Positions 2,734 through 61,335 of a stretch of 64,000 nucleotides of DNA are shown in pieces. Under the pieces are notes generated by a model. The model did no database searches, was not told the origin of the DNA, and saw only the letters and a program-made list of their open reading frames with translations. The DNA is taken from assembly GCA_021292105.1 (NCBI GenBank), contig CM037857.1, positions 33,922,680 through 33,986,679 on the forward strand, read 5' to 3'. The stretch comes from Anadara kagoshimensis. Lineage: Eukaryota; Mollusca; Bivalvia; Arcoida; Arcidae. The translations under genes were made by a program, and so were the position numbers. Positions within the stretch are counted from its first letter, which is position 1, and every line of letters begins with the position of its first letter.

Positions 2734-3399
2734 AAGCAAGCAAAATCTGTCGTGTGCTAGCTTTAATTATTTGTTGTTGAAACAATACATTCAAAAGTAG
2801 CATTATTCTGTTATGTTATTGAATTTTGATTTAAAAAAAAAAAAAAAATTCTGTATATGACATTATAAAGCAAGTTTCCAAAAATTCAATGAATGGATTT
2901 CAACTGCGGGACATGTTTCCAATAAAAAATAATAATGATAATAATTTGAATAAATTATATGTAAAGGTAAAACTCCAATACTCACAGTAAACTGGAAACC
3001 TTAACTAAAATCCAAAAACTATTTTTCCAGAAAAAAGTCGAATATAATGATAAAAGTAATTGAACTTACAATGATCTAAATGTCTTCTGGTTCTTGCAAC
3101 GGACACAGTCCAGATATCTAATGGTCAAGCACAATGTCCAGTTTCTTATATATGATCGGCCGGAGACCTTGGGGCTGGACAACGTCAATTATATGATGTT
3201 TTAAGTGATCGTTGGTCATTAGCGAGAACGCCTTTTCTATGTCATGACCAAAATTCGCCAAAGGACAATAAATGGTTACATGTTATAAACCCACGTTTTT
3301 AGCGGAATCATTTATCATGGATTAGGCTTATAGTTTGATCAGCTAATATTGTATATTGTTCTGGTCAAGTTTTTGGAATTCATAACATGGGTCAAGACA
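1116..3399. other. Intergenic, AT-rich, no gene seen
   Basis: I see no exon-like frame here. It holds a (CT)n run at about 1650-1709, a poly-A tract near 2308-2333 and another near 2680-2732. A 68-codon open frame at 2160 reads through the first poly-A tract and is not gene-like. Confidence 0.6.
1650..1709. repeat. (CT)n microsatellite
   Basis: About 28 CT repeats with one G interruption. Confidence 0.95.
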
Positions 3400-3497
3400 G
3401 ACTACAAATCAAAAACAAACATTGCAATTCATGTGAAAAAGCAAACTAAAAACTTTGAATGTGACCAATTAAGTTAGACTTCCACCAAGGAACTAAC
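3400..3497 (-). mobile_element. RT-element 3' tail, 5'-truncated copy
   Basis: The first bases (AAAAACAAACATTGCAATTCATG) are the minus-strand form of the shared 3' end of the reverse-transcriptase element described at 51120-51790. Only about 95 bp remain. Confidence 0.6.
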
Positions 3498-3862
3498 ATT
3501 CTCCAACACCATTGTCATGCGCTACTTTTGAATGCGTTTTTTTAATTAATATTCAAAAGTAGCACATTGCACCCTGATAAACTAGTTTTCCCTTTATAAT
3601 GTAATAAATGGTCTGGTAAAACTTTGTTCCACACCATGGCGTAGTGTGGGATCTCCTGGTAGTACTTTAGTTACCACCATAATGTAATTCAGGGTCTGGT
3701 AACTTCCATCATCACCATAATACGATGCAACATTCTATTTTATTGCCAATTAAGGACCTGAAATTAAGGATATGAAGTTACAATAAGAAGACAAAATCCA
3801 AATGTCAGAATATGTAATTAATAAATCAAGATCAATCTGATTTAAACTCTTAAAAGTCAGGT

Positions 3863-4121
3863 CAGGCCCTAGTTTCACAATCATTCCTTAACTAAGATTC
3901 TCCTTATCTTAAATCTGTCAAATTTGAATCTTAATTTTATGAATTATTAGGATATTAAGAAACTTAAGGAAGGAGCCAATTTGAAAATCTCTTTAAGCTT
4001 ATAACATATGCGTTTAGCTTAATCAAAAATGGGCATCTATTGTTCTAACACAGATTTCCAAAATTTGCCAAATTTAAGTAAAGAAAATCTTAGTTAAGAA
4101 ATGATTGTGAAACCGGGACCT
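3863..4121. mobile_element. MITE with TTTCACAATCATT inverted ends
   Basis: The left end reads GGCCCTAGTTTCACAATCAT followed by CCTTAACTAAGATT. The right end is its inverse (TCTTAGTTAAGAAATGATTG, then TGAAACCGGGACC). The interior is AT-rich without a frame. Relatives lie at 25120-25279, 37833-38062 and 39175-39400. Confidence 0.75.
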
Positions 4122-4421
4122 AGAAGTAGTATCTCGTTTACAAAACGTCACCCGTGTATCGACCAGAACGCCTGTAAGTTGGGGGATCGAATCATGGCCG
4201 AGTACAATGATAGGTTATTTTTGTCATTATAGCAACAAAAAGCAAGACTTCGCCATAATGTTCAGTGACACAGAGTGATTTATTTACAAAACTTCGCTGA
4301 AATGTTTATTTACAAAGTGAGACATATTTACAAATCTTAAGAGATGGTCAGTTTATAGGAACATTTTCAACCATGTCTACTCCAACAACTTATTCTATGA
4401 AATATCGTAAAACACACCTAC

Positions 4422-6076: not shown

Positions 6077-6262
6077 TACAGTCTAACCTGCCTTAAAGGC
6101 CGTCACCTCTTTGTAAAGATCACCTGTTTATAAAATCCAGTAAAATTGTATCCCAATTGTTTTTTATTAATATTATTTGAACTGTATATAAAGACGACCT
6201 ATCCACATAGACCACTTTCACTGGTTCCCTTTGACTGGCCTTTATAGACAGGTTTGACTGTA
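6077..6262. mobile_element. TA-flanked MITE, CAGTCAAACCTG family, copy A
   Basis: The ends are TACAGTCTAACCTGCCTTAA and TATAGACAGGTTTGACTGTA, an inverted repeat beginning CAGT after a TA duplication. This is the usual look of Tc1/mariner-type MITEs. The interior repeats GGCCTTTATA motifs. Other copies: 7149-7312, 18317-18488, 28860-29021, 62632-62789. Confidence 0.82.
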
Positions 6263-6609
6263 CTTATACGCTACTGGTGGTATATAAGCTGTCTATGACA
6301 TCACCATTATAGGTCTATCAGTGTATTTATGACATTGTTTTATTTCTTATGGAGTCGGTGTATGTATGCCTGATTTGTATCGTGGTGTAAATCACCAAAC
6401 AGGAAGTTCTTCATACACAAATACCTATAGCTTCCTTAATTATTGTCAAAAATATCACGACCGTCGCTAGAATTAATTACAGTCCCCGGAAAATGTCTGT
6501 CAATCCCTCCGACTGGCTCGAACCGGTGTCGGGCGGTTCGGATACTAGTATGTACGTCAGTATAGGATTTAATGGATAATGGTTATGTAATTTCAGCTCA
6601 GGGTTTAGA

Positions 6610-6962
6610 CACTTAGACACAAATGTTGGTTGTTGAATGTTAAATGAAAGATGTATATTTTGTAATGGTGTTGTTGAAGATGAATGTCATTTTATTTTGG
6701 AGTGTGAAACATATACCGATATTAGAAAAAACATACTACTGGGTCAAATCATGTTCAAACTTATACAGTTGCTCAGCATTGATCAACAATGTAAAACCAT
6801 TATAATCTAGCAAAATTTACTCTATGTTTATTATCTCTCCTGGTACTGCTGTTTGTTTATTACAGATATATACTGCTCATTGAACATTGTTTGTATTATG
6901 TTATTATATATTGTAAATCCAATAAGTTGTAATTAACTTACGGAATAAAGAAATTGAATTGA
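6610..6962 (+). pseudogene. LINE 3' end: C-terminal zinc-knuckle fragment
   Basis: A short frame from about 6640 encodes RCIFCNGVVEDECHFILEC, a CxxC...H....C pattern typical of the C-terminus of several non-LTR retrotransposon polymerases. The same pattern occurs in the larger fragment at 8113-8739. Stop codons follow, then an AT-rich tail ending GGAATAAAGAAATTGAATTG. Only the 3' end was inserted or kept; the clade cannot be settled from this piece. Confidence 0.65.
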
Positions 6963-7148
6963 ATATTAATGATTTATTTCATTTGATTTCACTTTTTTCG
7001 AGTAGTACATTTTGCCTTGTCGCCATACACAATCTTTTACTAATTTCTGTCACAACTTTGTTCATTTAAAGTTTACAAATTAAACTTTTAACTTTATGCA
7101 GTATGTCATATTTGAAACAACGTCTTTGTCATATCGATAATAAGAAAT

Positions 7149-7312
7149 ACAGTCAAACCTGTCTATAAAGGTCACCATGGGAACCAGTAAAAGTGGCCTT
7201 TATATACAGGTTCAAGTAATATGAATGAAGAACAATTGAGATACAATTATACTGGCCTTTATAAGCAGGTGGCGCTAATATAGAGGTGGCCTTTAAGGCA
7301 GATTGAACTGTA
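7149..7312. mobile_element. TA-flanked MITE, CAGTCAAACCTG family, copy B
   Basis: Starts TACAGTCAAACCTGTCTATA and ends with the inverted GGCAGATTGAACTGTA. Short open frames through it are not genes. Confidence 0.82.
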
Positions 7313-10494: not shown

Positions 10495-11230
10495 TCCGCT
10501 AACCAACTGGTTAATCTAACCGAGGTTTTAACAAGAGGGCCCAGGGATTGACTCTTGGCCTCAATATTTTCCGCTAACCAACTGGTAAATCTAACCGAGG
10601 TTTGAACAAGGGGACCGTATCCGGGGATCGAATCTCGACCTCCAGTTTTTTTTTGCTAAACGAGTTTTGAAAAAGAGGACCAATGGATCGAATCTCGACC
10701 TCCAGTTTTTTTCGCTAAACGAGTTTTGAACAAGAGGCCCCATGGATCGAATCTCGACCTCCAGGTTTTTTCCGCTGAACGAGTTTTGAACAAGAGGGCC
10801 CACGGATCGAATCTCGACCTCCAGGTTTTTTCGCTAAACGAGTTTTGAACAAGAGGCCCCATGGGTCGAATCTCGACCTCCAGGTTTTTTTTAGCTAAAC
10901 GAGTTTTGAACAAGAGGGCACAGGGAACGAGCTTTGAACAAGAGGACCCATGGATCGCATCTCGACCTCCAGTTTTTTTTTTCGCTAAACGAGCTTTGAA
11001 CAAGAGGGCCCAGGGATCGAATCTCGATCTCCAGGTTTTTTCCGCTGAACGAGTTTTGAACAAGAGGGCCCAGGGATCGAATCTCGACCTCCAGGTTTTT
11101 TCGCTAAATGATTTTTGAACAAGAGGGCCCGGGGATCGAATCTCGACCTCCAGGTTTTTTTTAGCTAAACGAGTTTTGAACAAGAGGGCACAGGGATTGA
11201 ATCTCGGCCTCAAGTTTTCTATACTAAATC
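10495..11230 (-). repeat. 60-bp minisatellite built from a tRNA-like unit, about 12 copies
   Basis: Units of about 60 bp repeat GAGTTTTGAACAAGAGGCCC followed by ATGGATCGAATCTCGACCTC. On the minus strand each unit reads GAGATTCGATCC, close to a tRNA B box (GGTTCGANTCC). The outermost, less changed units add AACCAGTTGGTTAGCGG, like a tRNA A-box region. Length varies in the T tracts. The long open frames seen on both strands here are products of the repeat. Confidence 0.85.
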
Positions 11231-26506: not shown

Positions 26507-27629
26507 AATATGTGGGAAATACGCAATGATATCATGAATAGGCTAAGTACAGGAGGGGTTGCATCCCATAAATGTGGTGAATTTATCTTAGTTCTGGTGA
26601 GGCCCTTTCAGTGTTCATGATATGTGTGGGATATTTTTCTGAGTAATGGATAATAAAATGATTGTATTGCAAATACCACATGTAGTTATATAATAAAAAA
26701 ATTCCCTATCGCCGACGTTGTTCTTTCATTTACAGTAAATATGGAAGGTGAATAAGGTTACACTATATAAATATTATATTCTGATAGAGGACCAGTCCAT
26801 ATTGTCACCTAAAGACATTATAAAAATATAACAGCCTTTTTAAACATCGAACCACGTTCAATAAAACTACATGTATATAATTACATATTATACCAGTTTT
26901 AATTTTACAGTACTATACAGCCGTTTCGGAATACAATTCCTCATCAGTAGTGCTTGGACCAAAATTATGAAACCAAGATTGTTATCAAGATGTTGAAAAG
27001 ATATCTAAACGACCAAAATATATTTTACCAAAATTAGCTATAGAGGTGATACTTTGTATGAGGGAGTATACCTTAGTTTTTGAGGAATTTCAAATTTCAA
27101 CTAGCATCAAATTTAGATAATTGTATATTTTTCACTAATTAGTTTTTAATAATTATTATAAAATATACAAACTGACGTCTAGGAAAAATAGCACAAGATA
27201 AACCCTTCTTGCGACTAATAAATCTGTATATATAACTTATTGGCAGGACTTCCTTTAAAACTTTTAAAATTGGCTTGTTTCCGTCATTTGTAGATATGTA
27301 GATGTGAAGTGCGAGGGATTACATACATAATGAAGTCACTAAAATTCATAATATGTTCGTTGATGAAGATCATGTTTTTGTATGGGGCGCCATTCATTAA
27401 AACGTGTTGGTTTTCTTTTGCTGACCGATTTATATTTTGTATAATATATGAAGTGTTGTTAATATAGCTTCAGTAAATCGTCACTAAGTTATAGATCTCT
27501 ATCCATGTATTATTATGGTTTAAACTACGAATAATAAAATAGTGCGTCAAGTTTGACCTGACGGGTTGACCTTTAGTTTCAATATTAAATAGGTTTAATA
27601 GCCTGCGTGATTTAGGGACAACAACTAAG
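26507..27629. other. Intergenic; L1-type 3' tail at 26885-26990
   Basis: On the minus strand, AAAATTAAAACTGGTATAAT with TATGTAAT matches the 3' end of the LINE at 56420. It is preceded by GAGGAATTGTATTCCGAAAC. The rest shows nothing I recognise. Confidence 0.5.
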
Positions 27630-28512
27630 TTATACAGGGCTTTGGCAGGTTACACGGTCCCATGTACCCCGTCAACGATTCATGTACCCTGAGCCACAGG
27701 CGAAGGGTACATTCATCTTTGACGGGGTACATGGGACCGTGTAACCTGCCAAAGCCCTGTATAACGTTTTTGTCGCCCTTCAAAACGTTACCAGTTGGAT
27801 CTTTTTAACTTCCATTGACTTGCGTGCGTTGTCGCCATGTTTGTTTACCGTAACTAGACGTCAGAGATGTACGAGTTACTCCCCTTTTACCGCTAAACGT
27901 CGCGTGCTCTCATGTACCCCGGCAGATTTCCGAACATCGTTCCATGTACCCCGGCAAGTTAACCAATCGCTATACGAGAAATTTCTTTGAAGGATGACAA
28001 TATAAGTTATACAGGGCTTTGGCAGGTTACACGGCCCCATGTACCCCGTCAAAGATTTATGTACCCTGAGCCGCAGGCGAAGGGTACATTCATCTTTGAC
28101 GGGGTACATGGGGCCGTTTTTTTACAAAAACGTTATACAGGGCTTTGGCAGGTTACACGGCCCCATGTACCCCGTCAAAGATTTATGTACCCTGAGCCGC
28201 AGGCGAAGGGTACATTCATCTTTGACGGGGTACATGGGGCCGTGTAACCTGCCAAAGCCCTGTATAACGTTTTTGTCACCCTTCAAAGCGTTACCAGTTG
28301 GATTTTTTAAACTTCCATTTCGTATTATGTTTGACTTGCGTTCGCCATGTTTGTTTACCGTAACTAGACGTCAGCGATGTACGAGTTACTTCCCTTTTAC
28401 CGCTAAACGTCGCGTGCGTTCATGTACCCCGGCAGATTTCCGAACATCGTTCCATGTACCCCGGCAAGTTAACCAATCGCTATGCGAGAAATTTCTTTGA
28501 AGGGTGACAAGT
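27630..28512. repeat. Cluster of three near-perfect hairpins with linking repeats
   Basis: Hairpin 1 (27630-27764) has 46-bp arms that match base for base, starting TTATACAGGGCTTTGGCAGG. Hairpin 3 (28132-28267) has the same build with GGCCCC for GGTCCC. Hairpin 2 (28004-28115) has lost the end of its right arm. Between and after them lie two copies of a 240-bp linker (27765-28003 and 28268-28512) with ends TTTTTGTCACCCTTCAAA and TTTGAAGGGTGACAA. The linker repeats CATGTACCCCGGCA, echoing CATGTACCCCGTCAA in the arms. Confidence 0.88.
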
Positions 28513-28859
28513 TCCATTACCATAAACACTCGGTACCCAGTATTACTATCATGTGTCCTTATATATGAACTTTTTGTCACCCTTCAAAGAAATCCCCTGA
28601 ATTACACAATGGATATGTCTGCTTGAAAATTGAAATTAAAGGTCAAACGCCACGTCAAAGTTTACTCACTAGTACTTTACCTATTTACAAGTGTTATTTT
28701 TTAAATTGTGGGTAGCAGAAAACGATTACAAAATGTAATGCTGCTAAATTTCAATGAAACTGCGTGAAAAATGGTTAAATCTATCGACAGAAGTAATGGT
28801 GGCGATGTGACTTGTCATCACTTAAGATGGTAATTAAATTTACGTGCAAATATATCGTG
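28513..28859. other. Intergenic, nothing recognised
   Basis: One more TTTTTGTCACCCTTCAAAG end stands alone at 28568. No gene seen. Confidence 0.5.
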
Positions 28860-48775: not shown

Positions 48776-49777
48776 TCTAATTGGCTGATACGCACAGGAT
48801 AGTACAATACCTTTTTGCCACTTGTTCTTTCGGACAAGGAAACAATTTTCAGCATGCCTAGGCAAAAAATAACTTGTCCGACTTATTTAAGTGGAACAGT
48901 TTTTTTTTAATTTTAAGTCTTGTATGTGACTGAAATCACTGGCTGTGTATGTTTGTATAAATTAAAATAAGTTTGATCATATACAGTGACGATCAAATCA
49001 GATTTTAATTTCTAAGAAAGCTTGTGACAGTTATCACAACGTATCAACTATGATATCCTTCAAATGCTTTGAATATCATTTTAGAAATTTTATACCAAAA
49101 CATTGCAGTGATTGTAAAGCACTCTGCATGGTCCTGATATATTTTTGTTGATTACAATTACATCAAATATGCCGACTACAATATGACCCTTGAACTAGAC
49201 GATGACTCCCGACTTGACAACGTGGTCCATAATCAAGTTTAAAATTTTACTCTTGTCCCAAAGGAGAAGTATCAAAACTGCTGAACTTGTCCGTAAGAAA
49301 AACTGATCGGTACCGGACAAGTGGACAAACCTTAATGCCATACGCGTTTATACAGGTGTTTCATTGCCTAATCAATATACGTCACGTATTATCCCGGTAA
49401 TGTTGGAAAACATTTTTGCCTGTCCGTCTAACCTTAAATTTAAATATCTATTTTGGACGACTGTATTTATATATGTGAATCAAGTTTTACTTCTCTCGTC
49501 TGGTGATTTGTCGCCAGATGGCAAGATTTAGATTTTACTTTCCGTCGCGTCGTTGTCGAAGTAAAATAAAATGTTAAGTTTTTGTCTTAAAGTTAAAAAG
49601 TCTAAATAAATCAATTTTAATCAGGATTTTAGGGTTAAAATAGCTGATGTTTAAGATATTTTAAGAAATTACTTGTATTTAAGAGAAAAACTGAGTTTTT
49701 AGAAAATGCTCCAACAGACTTATTTTTCAATGACATTTTGAATATAGCTTTTACCACGAAGGAACTTTAACATATAT
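48776..49777. other. Lectin intron, nothing recognised
   Basis: Several short CTTGTCC/GGACAAG motifs occur at 48828-49330, but I could not define an element. Confidence 0.45.
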
Positions 49778-50796
49778 TACTGTGAAATCATTAATTTTCG
49801 TTGGGTCCAATTTTCGTGGAATCGGTAAAAAATAACATTTCGTTGGGACGTAAATTCGTGGTTTTACTGTTATGTCAAAAATTTAGTTTGTCCTTTGAGC
49901 CTTGATAACGGGTAGGAAGTCATGCTTTGTTTGTTTATCGGCACCTATAGAAAAAGTTGTTTGTTGAAATAAGAAAGCAATAAATCGTGACAGAGACGCG
50001 GATTAATGACTAAGTCTCGGGTAGGCGCTAATTACCTGTAATCATTATATCAGTATCAATTAACTACACAAGCGATGTGACACCTGGCCCGAGTAGATCT
50101 ACCTGATACGTTGTACAAATAAGCGGTAATTAATTTAGATTTAAAAGTTTATGCATAGAACATCAATTATAATGTGTTTTATAATCCCTTTACGCAAAAC
50201 TGAATGTTTTTTCTGTGATATCGGCAACTTTATAAAAATTCTAATTATTGACCTCTGATGACCTAATCAGCTGTTTACGAGAGTAACAATGGCAGCTCTT
50301 ACCGATTCGAATGAAGTTTCGTATTTTTAGAAATCAAACAGCTGACTTAGTAATAATAATATAAAACAGGTTTATAGAGATTGTTAAAATGTTTATTCAA
50401 TTAATATGTAATCGGATTGGAATTTAAATGAGACGGGTCATAATTGATGATGAAAGTTACGGTTAGAAACCTGTCTGTCCCCAGGTCCCTATCGTTCCGA
50501 CCAGTTCCTAATTGAAAACAAACATTTTAAAAAAAATAATGAAGAATTTATTAAACATAATATATGTACTTAAATAATTTTCATAATTAAATCAAACATC
50601 CACCCATCTATACCTTGTGAAAAGTTTGTGTTTATGTGTGAGGTACGCTAGAGCAAAAAATATGGTCCATTAGTTATCATATATCTTGTCTTTTTACTTG
50701 AGGTTAATGTTTCGTGGTGGTCGTAAATTCGTGGTTCAGACTGTCCACTAAAACCACGAAAATTGATCCCCAACGAAAATTAATGATTTCACAGTA
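49778..50796. mobile_element. 1.02-kb element with perfect TACTGTGAAATCATTAAT inverted ends
   Basis: TACTGTGAAATCATTAATTT at 49778 is matched by AAATTAATGATTTCACAGTA ending at 50796. Inner parts of both ends carry TTCGTTGG and TAAATTCGTGGTT. The terminal TA may be the duplicated target. No transposase frame exists in between. Alternatively two separate inverted MITE copies lie 800 bp apart. Confidence 0.72.
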
Positions 50797-51119
50797 CATA
50801 GTTTTAAAAATATTTCACATTTTGTGGGGTAAATAAGAGTTGCATTAAAAAGAAAACCCTGTTAATTTCGAGAAGATACTTTAAAAGACTTTTCTTTCAG
50901 AAAGTTTGAATATGTTTTCTACAACCAAGGATCTTTATCATATACTACAGGTTTTATTTAACTAATATACATTTTCGAGGTTTGAATCGCACTTATAGAT
51001 AATTCCTATGAATTAAGAGAGCAAATACTTTAGCAGACACATTTTAAATGTTTCTTCTTGAAATTTAAAATATAGATTGTAAAAAAATATGAAAGTTTAA
51101 TCTTTTTTTCTATTTTATT

Positions 51120-58709: not shown

Positions 58710-59648
58710 TCAAGATTTCTTTGTGATTTGATATATATATATATACTTTCCGGTATCGTCAATCAATCCGGTTAAATTTTTATTTATATAATTTCTCTTT
58801 TCTAGATTTAAAAAATAGGTTGTTGGTTTTTCACCATGTTCAATCCATTTAGCTCTTGTTCGTATAAAAAGACCTTTTATATAATTTTTCCTAATTTTTT
58901 CTAGCTCATCGTTTAATCTTTTAACTTCATTTTCATTTTCTTTGGTTGGGGAGATAGCATATAATTTAGAGGCTTTATTGATTTGATTTTCCAAGTTTTC
59001 TTTTTCATTTTTGCGTTCCCTCTTTTTCCAAGAACTGTATTCAATTGTTTTCCCTCTTATTTTAAGTAATAATAAATCAAGAAATAAATTATCGTTAATG
59101 CTTAATTGATAGTCACCCTCCTCTCCATTATTTAAAATTAAATATTCTTGTACTAAGTTAACAATCAATGTTTTTATTTCCTTCACGTAATCAGTATCGT
59201 ACAATAAACTATTGTTGAATTTCCAGAAACCCCTTTTCAAAATTTGTAAAGCGAAGTTGAATTTCAGCAAAAGAATGATCGGATCGATAGCCTGGTTTAA
59301 TTTCTGTTTTGTTAACCAATGACATAAATTCTTCAAATAAGAATAAATCTTAACGGGCAGCTTTTGGGGGATTTTGACAAAACCAAGTATAGCGTTTAGT
59401 GCCGTTATTACAAATTCTCCAAGGGTCTACCAAATTATAAAACTCTTTAAATGACAGCAATTCTTCTCTTGCTTTTGGGTTATTTATTCTCTTGTAATTT
59501 CGATAGTCAAGTGATATGTCTTGTACTAAATTAAAATCGCCCCCTATAATTATAAATTCGTTATCTAAGTCTTGTATGGTTGATTTTAATGTTGTATAAA
59601 ATTTTGGTTCATCTGTATTGGGTCCATACATATTTATTAAAGTTATTG
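58710..59648 (-). pseudogene. LINE endonuclease (second part) and linker
   Basis: Frame 59631-59350 carries INMYGPNTD and IIIGGDFNLVQD, the apurinic-type endonuclease motifs. Frame 59336-58710 carries WKFNNSLL, a long charged coiled region (residues about 105-165) and RTRAKWIEHGEKPTTYFLNL, the L1-type entry to the polymerase. A stop and shift at about 59340 separates the two. Confidence 0.82.
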
Positions 59649-59650
59649 TA

Positions 59651-61050
59651 CAATGCTTACGGCAGTAGCGGATCTCAGTCAGTAGCGGATCATTTTTAGA
59701 ATGAAGTTAATTTTTTCCCTATCATTACAAGAGACCAATAAAACTCGGATATATTTCTTTAAAGCTGGTAATTTTACTTAATTCTACGTTTCATTTGTGT
59801 TGATAAATGTCCTATTTTTTAAATTCTCGGCTTTTTAATGCGAATGTCACAAGCGTCTCAGCGACATGGATGTGATTTCTAAAACCTAACTTCCGATTTG
59901 ACCAACGTGTTCAATACTTTCAAAGGTAATTTGAAAAGATTACAATAGATCTTTACATTCGTTAACATGTCTTCTTTCACGACATAAACCTTTATTGAGC
60001 TTTACAGTTCATGACAATAAAAAATAAACCAGTTTATGCAGGGTGCAATTACGGCAATAACGGATCAGCTGCTGTCTACAGGGGACCTCTCAAAAGGCTA
60101 AGAAAAATATGGCATGTACCAATGGGGCTGTCTGGTGCTTTCAGAAAAATAATAGATTCTGGTGGGTTCAGTTATGCAGAGGCTATGGGGAACCAGTGCC
60201 TAGCTTCACTCCATGGCCAGTACCCCATGAGAAAGATGGGGGCATATTGTCATGCCATGCCACTATCTTATTTATCATATGATAAGACCAGATCAATGGG
60301 CATTTTAAAGAAGCCATAATTGTCATGCTTGAGGGATAATCTGTATGAGATTAGAATATTTTGAATAAATACATTAATATCCAACCCTATATTTTGTGTT
60401 TAAGACAATTAAAGTTTTATTACGTTCTATATTTTTGTCTGGTAACAATTTTGGACCTATGATGTACAGTGTACACTACCAATAAGTATCATTGTATGCA
60501 TATACTGTTATTGTCAAAATAAAATCTTCATGGACAAGAGTATGTCATAATATTTATAACTTATAAGGTACAATTATTTTTATTTCCTTCGCCATTTACT
60601 GCTTTTATAATTCAGTATTCAAAACAATGTTGATTGACTTAATTTATCAGGGACATTGCGATGATTTTTTTGTTATTTATTTTAATCATGACATTTGTTG
60701 ATATTACGATTAAAACTCTTTAATATTGTTTAATGATTAGCATTTTTTGCAATTGAATGATGGAAACTCAAACTAATCATGTTTTGAGTTAATCGCCTAT
60801 CGTTTTCTTGACACAAGGTGGCACGATCCGCTACTCACAAATTGATTCGTTACTAACGTAAATACATGGGTTACAAAACGAGTGGATTGCCCATACTTAT
60901 AGTCGGACGATTTTTATCATCTAATGATAAATTGAAAGAGTGAGAAATGTCAATTGATAGTACATGTACCAAAAAATATAATCGGCAGCGATGTTTTTCT
61001 CGGAGAGCAGTGAATATTGCACTAATGATCCGCTACTGCCGTAAGCACTG
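59651..61050. mobile_element. 1,400-bp TA-flanked inverted-repeat transposon (Tc1/mariner-type ends)
   Basis: The left end CAATGCTTACGGCAGTAGCG and the right end, its inverse (CGCTACTGCCGTAAGCACTG), agree over 24 bp with one mismatch. TA stands on both sides (59649-59650 and 61051-61052). AGTAGCGGATC repeats inside at 59681-59691 and, inverted, at 60825-60835, as expected for transposase binding sites. No transposase frame is present; the only frame of note is 60011-60319. Removing the insert with one TA restores the endonuclease frame of the LINE across the site, which fixes both borders. Confidence 0.88.
60011..60319 (+). CDS. 102-codon ORF of unknown kind carried in the TA-flanked transposon
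   Basis: I do not recognise this protein. It is open for 309 bases with a base composition clearly richer in G and C than its AT-rich flanks, and it uses varied residues (Gly, Met, Tyr, Arg, Cys) rather than the Phe/Ile/Lys bias of chance frames here. It contains YAGCNYGNNGSAAVYRGPLK, then a basic helix-like RLRKIW and SGAFRKIIDSGGFSYAEAMG. TTGAGCTTTACAG just before the ATG looks like a splice acceptor, and AATAAA lies at 60364, 45 bases after the stop. It could be the last exon of a host gene caught by the transposon, or a retrocopied piece. It is too short and has none of the motifs of a DDE transposase. Confidence 0.45.
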   Translation: MTIKNKPVYAGCNYGNNGSAAVYRGPLKRLRKIWHVPMGLSGAFRKIIDSGGFSYAEAMGNQCLASLHGQYPMRKMGAYCHAMPLSYLSYDKTRSMGILKKP

Positions 61051-61052
61051 TA

Positions 61053-61335
61053 TATTTATTTTCTATTAAGATTTCTAGTATAAGGAAGTTTCCATTTTTA
61101 TCTTTTAATCCATTTTTAACTTTGAATTCAAAATTATTGTTTAAAAAAATAGCCACCCCTCTAGAATTACTTCTACCGCATGACATATATTTTTTTCTTA
61201 TCTTTCTCAATGAAGGGAGTATCTTGCAAGAGATAAATACTGAATTTCGTATTTTTTAGGAAATTAATGACGTCTTTTCTCTTATTATTTTAATCCCCGA
61301 GACCCCTACAATTAAAGGACAAGATTTTAATATCG
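61053..61335 (-). pseudogene. LINE endonuclease (first part)
   Basis: From ILSFNCRGLGD near 61330 through LLQDTPFIEKD (about 61230) and SRGVAIFLNNNFEF (about 61170-61130) to IENKYT at the insertion border. This is the N-terminal half of an apurinic-type endonuclease. A frame change occurs near 61290. Confidence 0.75.

Follow-up and report, generated by a model that had tools for sequence, protein, structure and literature searches.

Elements of the pogo family are known in molluscs and in Crassostrea, according to an excerpt of PMC7325037, and an excerpt of PMC2572040 presents Turmoil-1 of C. elegans as a case of transduplication, in which a piece of a protein-coding gene lies within a DNA transposon. 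Among the matches listed for the literature on bivalve Tc1/mariner elements and exon capture, none described the element reported here, and three strings from its terminal inverted repeats (TIRs) did not occur in the literature searched.

The element lies in a stretch of 64,000 nt from Anadara kagoshimensis (GCA_021292105.1, CM037857.1:33,922,680-33,986,679, forward strand), the whole of which is called the window. An earlier examination of the letters alone (the sequence-only reading) had described a non-autonomous Tc1/mariner-type element that either captured a host exon or carries an undescribed small gene. The class assignment stood, in line with the TA sites, the TIRs and the transposase of a long relative. 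We consider the insert to be, very probably, a non-autonomous and internally deleted pogo-like (Tc1/mariner) derivative, whose "cargo" is a scrap of its parent's own 3' exon.

Insertion site and structure of the element

The insertion is a real element (Table 1). Its inverted ends and the TA on both sides, as given by the sequence-only reading, were confirmed by direct reading and by a BLAST search of the whole window with the element, in which the two arms paired at E=1.4e-4. Internal copies of the end motif were likewise recovered: CAGTAGCGGATC occurred eight times in the window at ≤2 mismatches, compared to 1.36 expected, and none of 100 shuffles reached eight. By eye, the end-like copies within the element lie on the plus strand in its left half and on the minus strand in its right half. 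Removal of the insert and one TA restored a single unbroken minus-strand frame (...LEILIENKYTITLINMYGPNTDEPKFY...), also in agreement with the first description of the site. The rejoined frame looks typical of a LINE endonuclease; the 93-aa left piece of the split frame matched Exo_endo_phos_2 weakly in Pfam (E=0.0027, 18 bits, under the cut-off of 27.4).

Table 1. Features of the element and its insertion site (window positions)
Feature	Position	Strand	Basis or remark
Probable non-autonomous pogo-type element	59651..61050	+	1,400 bp; ends, TA sites, copy family
Left terminal inverted repeat	59651..59674	+	24 bp, one mismatch vs right arm
Right terminal inverted repeat	61027..61050	-	Pairs with left arm
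TA target-site copy, left	59649..59650	.	Direct reading
TA target-site copy, right	61051..61052	.	Direct reading
Apparent LINE endonuclease frame split by the element	59350..61210	-	ORF list, Pfam, empty-site joining
Second motif copy	59680..59691	+	Start-to-start 17 bp from first; single in some relatives
102-codon ORF; accidental, unconserved	60011..60319	+	Copy census, codon scores
Internal TIR-like motif	60048..60066	+	Within the ORF (codons 13-19 by eye)
Putative junction of internal deletion	60107..60112	+	L041, L042 and L051 hold about 490 bp more at this point
Putative in-frame remnant of parent 3' exon	60110..60184	+	ORF residues 34-58
Putative remaining exon fossil, split over frames	60185..60272	+	Matches L087-exon residues 93-145, three pieces
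AATAAA	60364..60369	+	Direct reading; family-wide
Subterminal motif copy, right half	60825..60836	-	

The acceptor-like string before the ORF and the AATAAA after it do exist, with exact forms in 33/41 and 28/41 copies, respectively, and approximate forms in 41/41. The AATAAA is possibly a relic of a polyadenylation signal of the parent gene. When the six frames of the window copy were searched with stops read as X, no Pfam family was found at E≤10; as none of these frames holds a DDE_1, HTH or CENP-B-like domain, the window copy is only a non-autonomous relative. An RNA gene was considered and rejected, the best Rfam match reaching E=3.8 and 20.6 bits, where the gathering score is 60. Searches of viral contigs returned neither the TIR nor relatives of the 102-aa ORF.

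Other repeats were observed elsewhere in the window. A tandem array with a period of ~35 bp and evenly spaced inverted partners occupies 397-1111. At 27627-28596, long inverted repeats reaching 70 nt cluster together with overlapping ORFs, in what looks like a fold-back structure. At 10656-11213, a 185-aa ORF consists of a short repeated unit (FDPWALLFKTR-like) and presumably derives from a tandem DNA repeat. Inverted pairs of 31-32 nt with element-like spacing, at 3868-4117, 6235-7175 and 49776-50798, are possible further non-autonomous transposons.

The copy family and the 102-codon frame

A genome search with the ends, the check that the sequence-only reading had proposed, showed second copies to be abundant: the exact 26-mer of TA plus TIR occurred at 584 sites (284 forward and 300 reverse; individual places known for the first 100), and the reversed control at none. 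Searching the 1.115-Gb genome with the element gave at least 43 matches (40 of 662 candidates scored), among them the copy in the window and two end pieces of 28 bases. Without these two pieces, the main census comprised 41 copies, the window copy among them. Both ends were complete in 38 of the 41, with lengths of 1,390-1,417 bp, and 37 of these 38 were flanked by TA on either side, the exception being L031, with TC on the right. The duplicated subterminal motif, its second copy 17 bp on, was present in 33/41 copies, and the internal TIR-like motif in 41/41 at ≤3 mismatches.

Pairwise divergence among 38 copies (L021b, L022 and L023 left out) had a median of 4.6%. Since the closest pair is 0.36% apart, some copies are probably recent, which suggests recent movement of the family. 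Internal deletions that differ from each other were seen by eye in L021b, L057, L062 and L067, and this variety fits the reading of the family as deleted derivatives.

Several loci showed further rearrangement. L021 holds two family members in the same orientation (1458-2867 and 2917-4292), separated by 49 bp and resembling the window copy at 93% and 78%. An insertion of ~340 bp at about 1828-2167 of L043, which we take to be possibly a SINE, contains the tRNA-promoter-like string GGTTCGAACCC. A palindromic insertion of ~60 bp was found at 2620-2700 of L041, in the 1.8-kb form, and additional DNA lies at the corresponding place in L042. Within the 5.3-kb family member on C16 (L075), a tandem repeat of ~145 bp spans 3044-4397. 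Two long, highly similar elements at C8:69541 and C8:299456 are ~230 kb apart, possibly by segmental duplication.

With regard to the 102-codon ORF, the copies show that it is accidental and no maintained gene. Its supposed GC richness was correct in direction (0.427 vs 0.340 for the window), yet is not striking, since 8% of 310-bp window stretches reach the same value. Under four settings, 12 to 21 of every 400 Markov sequences of 1.4 kb (3-5%) contained an ORF of at least 102 aa, compared to 68/400 when the whole 1.4 kb had the composition of the ORF itself; at that composition, 6/1000 sequences of 320 bp contained an ORF of at least 95 codons.

The idea of an undescribed small mobile gene was not borne out. 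In the copies read, the 102-aa ORF was absent or broken everywhere else: from the corresponding ATG, not one of the other 40 copies attains this length, although 20 of them retain a frame of at least 90 codons from it. That a selected small gene is carried by the element is, in our judgement, scarcely credible, even though the ATG is kept in 38/41 copies and a frame of at least 90 codons follows it in 21/41, the window copy included. Most of these frames end in another frame. Indels that shift the frame relative to the majority sequence were present within the ORF region of 22 of the 39 near copies. The length of the window ORF rests on private indels, and L006 and L013 gain its last five residues through different ones. 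Distinct variants in the first 58 codons comprised 67 missense and one stop to 28 silent, a ratio of 2.43 compared to 3.03 expected (p=0.34), and were distributed over codon positions as 31/27/38; an earlier, smaller count in 19 copies had given 32:12 missense to silent. These neutral variants, together with the frameshifts, led us to reject a mobile small gene.

The codon score of the ORF was -0.026, compared to 0.12 for the two host genes that formed the small training set, and three of the five other frames scored better (best 0.019). A single-sequence fold had a mean pLDDT of 41.6, which says little taken alone. No Pfam family matched the 102-aa ORF, and the best PDB match had E=0.079. In the diverged copy L021b (78%), the ATG is missing and ~100 bp of the ORF region is replaced by other sequence.

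Exon homology and the transposase-bearing relative

Coding DNA beneath the ORF, which the sequence-only reading had suspected, was confirmed by exon homology in longer relatives. In L041 and L042, a frame running through the extra ~490 bp enters ORF residues 34-58; in L042 this shared frame runs uninterrupted for 139 codons, in L041 it is broken by a single stop, and L051 is a third copy of the form. In L042, GC by codon position was 0.509/0.391/0.300 and the codon score was the best of six, yet only -0.001.

A 54-residue query from this exon gave 21 matches in the genome from 23 candidates, all scored. Most were at 70-100% and largely at element-matching loci, and four lay elsewhere at 36-56%. 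One of these four, L087 on C13, has an AG acceptor followed by an exon open for 164 aa, the beginning of which is missing from L042. At E≤1e-3, the L087 exon protein matched 39 of the 41 copies of the element, and 20/20 shuffled queries matched none. Across the genome it had at least 150 matches (150 of 462 candidates scored), most covering only residues ~91-145, the part left in short elements. In the window copy this match is broken up across frames. Judged by this homology, ORF residues 34-58 are a coding fossil. At L087, L089 and L090 the exon is, by eye, preceded by AG and begins AAA, as would fit a spliced 3' exon that may be joined to the transposase.

Eleven element-borne exon copies showed few changes, with pairwise dN/dS of 0-1.56 where computable. 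Values were low (0.24-0.43) for L064/L065 against several other exon copies, and weak constraint may act on the exon in some long forms.

Searches for a domain returned little. The element exon gave a single 13-residue zinc-finger match in Pfam (E=0.26), and the L087 exon no family at E≤10, a result against the HIRAN-like domain that we had presumed the exon to resemble; among the matches listed for literature on pogo with HIRAN, no title dealt with such a pairing. In the PDB, the best matches were at E=1.1 for the L042 exon, 0.48 for the exon profile and, with the zinc finger proteins DPF3/ubi-d4, 0.026 for residues 2-39 of the exon at L087; none of the three was taken as real. The exon had no match in NCBIfam and no relatives in viral or in bacterial and archaeal contigs.

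A relative at C18:14730868-14735878, assembled from L071 and L090 with 537 middle bases outside the reading, measures 5,011 bp end to end and is bounded on each side by TA and a TIR with two mismatches. It matched DDE_1 (E=1.1e-10, 41.8 bits vs a Pfam cut-off of 22), as well as HTH_Tnp_Tc5 (0.011) and HTH_psq (0.032), both under their cut-offs. A near-complete exon with one TGA lies 1.2 kb downstream of the transposase. In its exon region it shares 78% identity with the window element, and its transposase frames are broken; this relative is old and decayed.

The C18 transposase piece had at least 146 matches in the genome (150 of 307 candidates scored). By the listed coordinates, the two best beside C18, at C9:5405431 and C13:27642312, are 1.4 and 1.9 kb upstream of L089 and L087, respectively, on the same strand, and two weaker ones on C15 (43% and 36%, with stops) are 1.3 and 1.4 kb upstream of two more exon copies. 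Of the seven exon loci at which TIRs are not demonstrated, as judged from 0.8-0.9 kb at L087, L088 and L089, four thus have a transposase match 1.3-1.9 kb upstream. Together with the C18 element, exon and transposase are paired at five loci. At the remaining three of the seven (C13:26612599, C3:49977852 and C13:28670979), no transposase was nearby among the matches listed (150 of 307 scored).

These neighbourhoods bear on the proposal of transduplication of the Pack-TYPE kind, in which an ordinary host gene would have supplied its last exon to the element as cargo. We favoured this explanation when L087 was discovered, and dropped it once pogo matches were found to adjoin L087, L089 and the two C15 loci. 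The three loci with no transposase nearby would agree with a host gene, as would the coding-like codon-position GC of L042, the open exon after its acceptor at L087, and the dN/dS of 0.15 between the L051 element exon and L087, although dS is saturated at 3.1. L087 and three more loci, however, are situated just downstream of C18-transposase matches, in the same order as in C18, which makes host capture, the first alternative of the sequence-only reading, quite unlikely.

The C18 copy could also be a composite, in which an unrelated pogo was inserted into a long form of the family, the family's own transposase being another one. In favour of this, C18 is broken at several points when set against the short form, other long forms (L043, L075) hold other extra DNA, and the transposase piece matched no locus apart from C18 among those read. 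Against this, transposase and exon follow each other in the same order, on one strand and with similar spacing at four more loci, where the transposases are 36-64% identical, and we regard a composite as unlikely.

No transposase family was detected in the 1.4-kb and 1.8-kb forms. The 5.3-kb C16 form (L075), its extra DNA being partly tandem repeat, gave weak matches to transposase that are ascribed to chance, and no element combining exactly these ends with an intact transposase turned up among the first 100 of the 584 end sites. Pogo-type transposase matches (41%) in open frames of 553-708 codons were observed at C1:41397536, C9:36445517 and C17:42503519, possibly representing intact families.

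According to the preferred account, descent by internal deletion from a pogo-like parent, that parent is best seen as the decayed 5.0-kb C18 copy. It would have had near-identical 24-bp ends and a TA target, a pogo-type transposase (HTH, CENP-B/Tc5-type HTH and DDE_1) and a 3' exon, located 1.2 kb downstream of the transposase and encoding a domain of ~110-160 residues. Internal deletions would have removed the transposase and most of the exon, and the remaining 1.4-kb elements, keeping the ends and subterminal motifs, would have been mobilised in trans by transposase made elsewhere. In the window copy, a deletion would have fused non-coding element DNA in frame to ~25 exon codons, and private indels would have extended the fused frame to 102 codons.

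A wider proposal, which we hold to be evenly poised between right and wrong, is that a pogo-like lineage bears an undescribed domain downstream of, or spliced to, its transposase, that purifying selection has kept this domain despite divergence of the transposases to 36-64% identity, and that deleted elements have spread hundreds of its fossils genome-wide.

Significance and comparison with known systems

What looked like a new gene in a transposon is resolved into an accidental ORF over DNA that is probably a readable fossil of the parent element. Although no transposase sequence can be detected in the short copy, the fossil exon led to the identity of the parent (pogo). The exon without significant Pfam or PDB match is the one novel part of an otherwise mostly ordinary element and, being present as a 3' exon at five transposase-adjacent loci, poses a small, testable question for transposon biologists.

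The window element shares the TA target and short TIRs with the pogo family (Tigger, Fot1 and similar; Tc1/mariner), and its C18 relative shares DDE_1 and weaker HTH_psq and HTH_Tnp_Tc5 matches. Unlike pogo elements, the window copy lacks a transposase, and the parent may differ by its extra downstream exon, encoding a domain with no Pfam match. Classical MITEs are shorter than these 1.4-kb elements. With MITEs and other deletion derivatives, the family has in common its high copy number, conserved ends, near-uniform size and lack of transposase, whereas it differs in retaining what appears to be a readable fossil of the parent's exon. Finally, as in Turmoil-1 and Pack-TYPE elements, a protein-coding piece lies inside a DNA transposon; in contrast to them, the piece most likely came here from the transposon's own parent rather than from a host gene.
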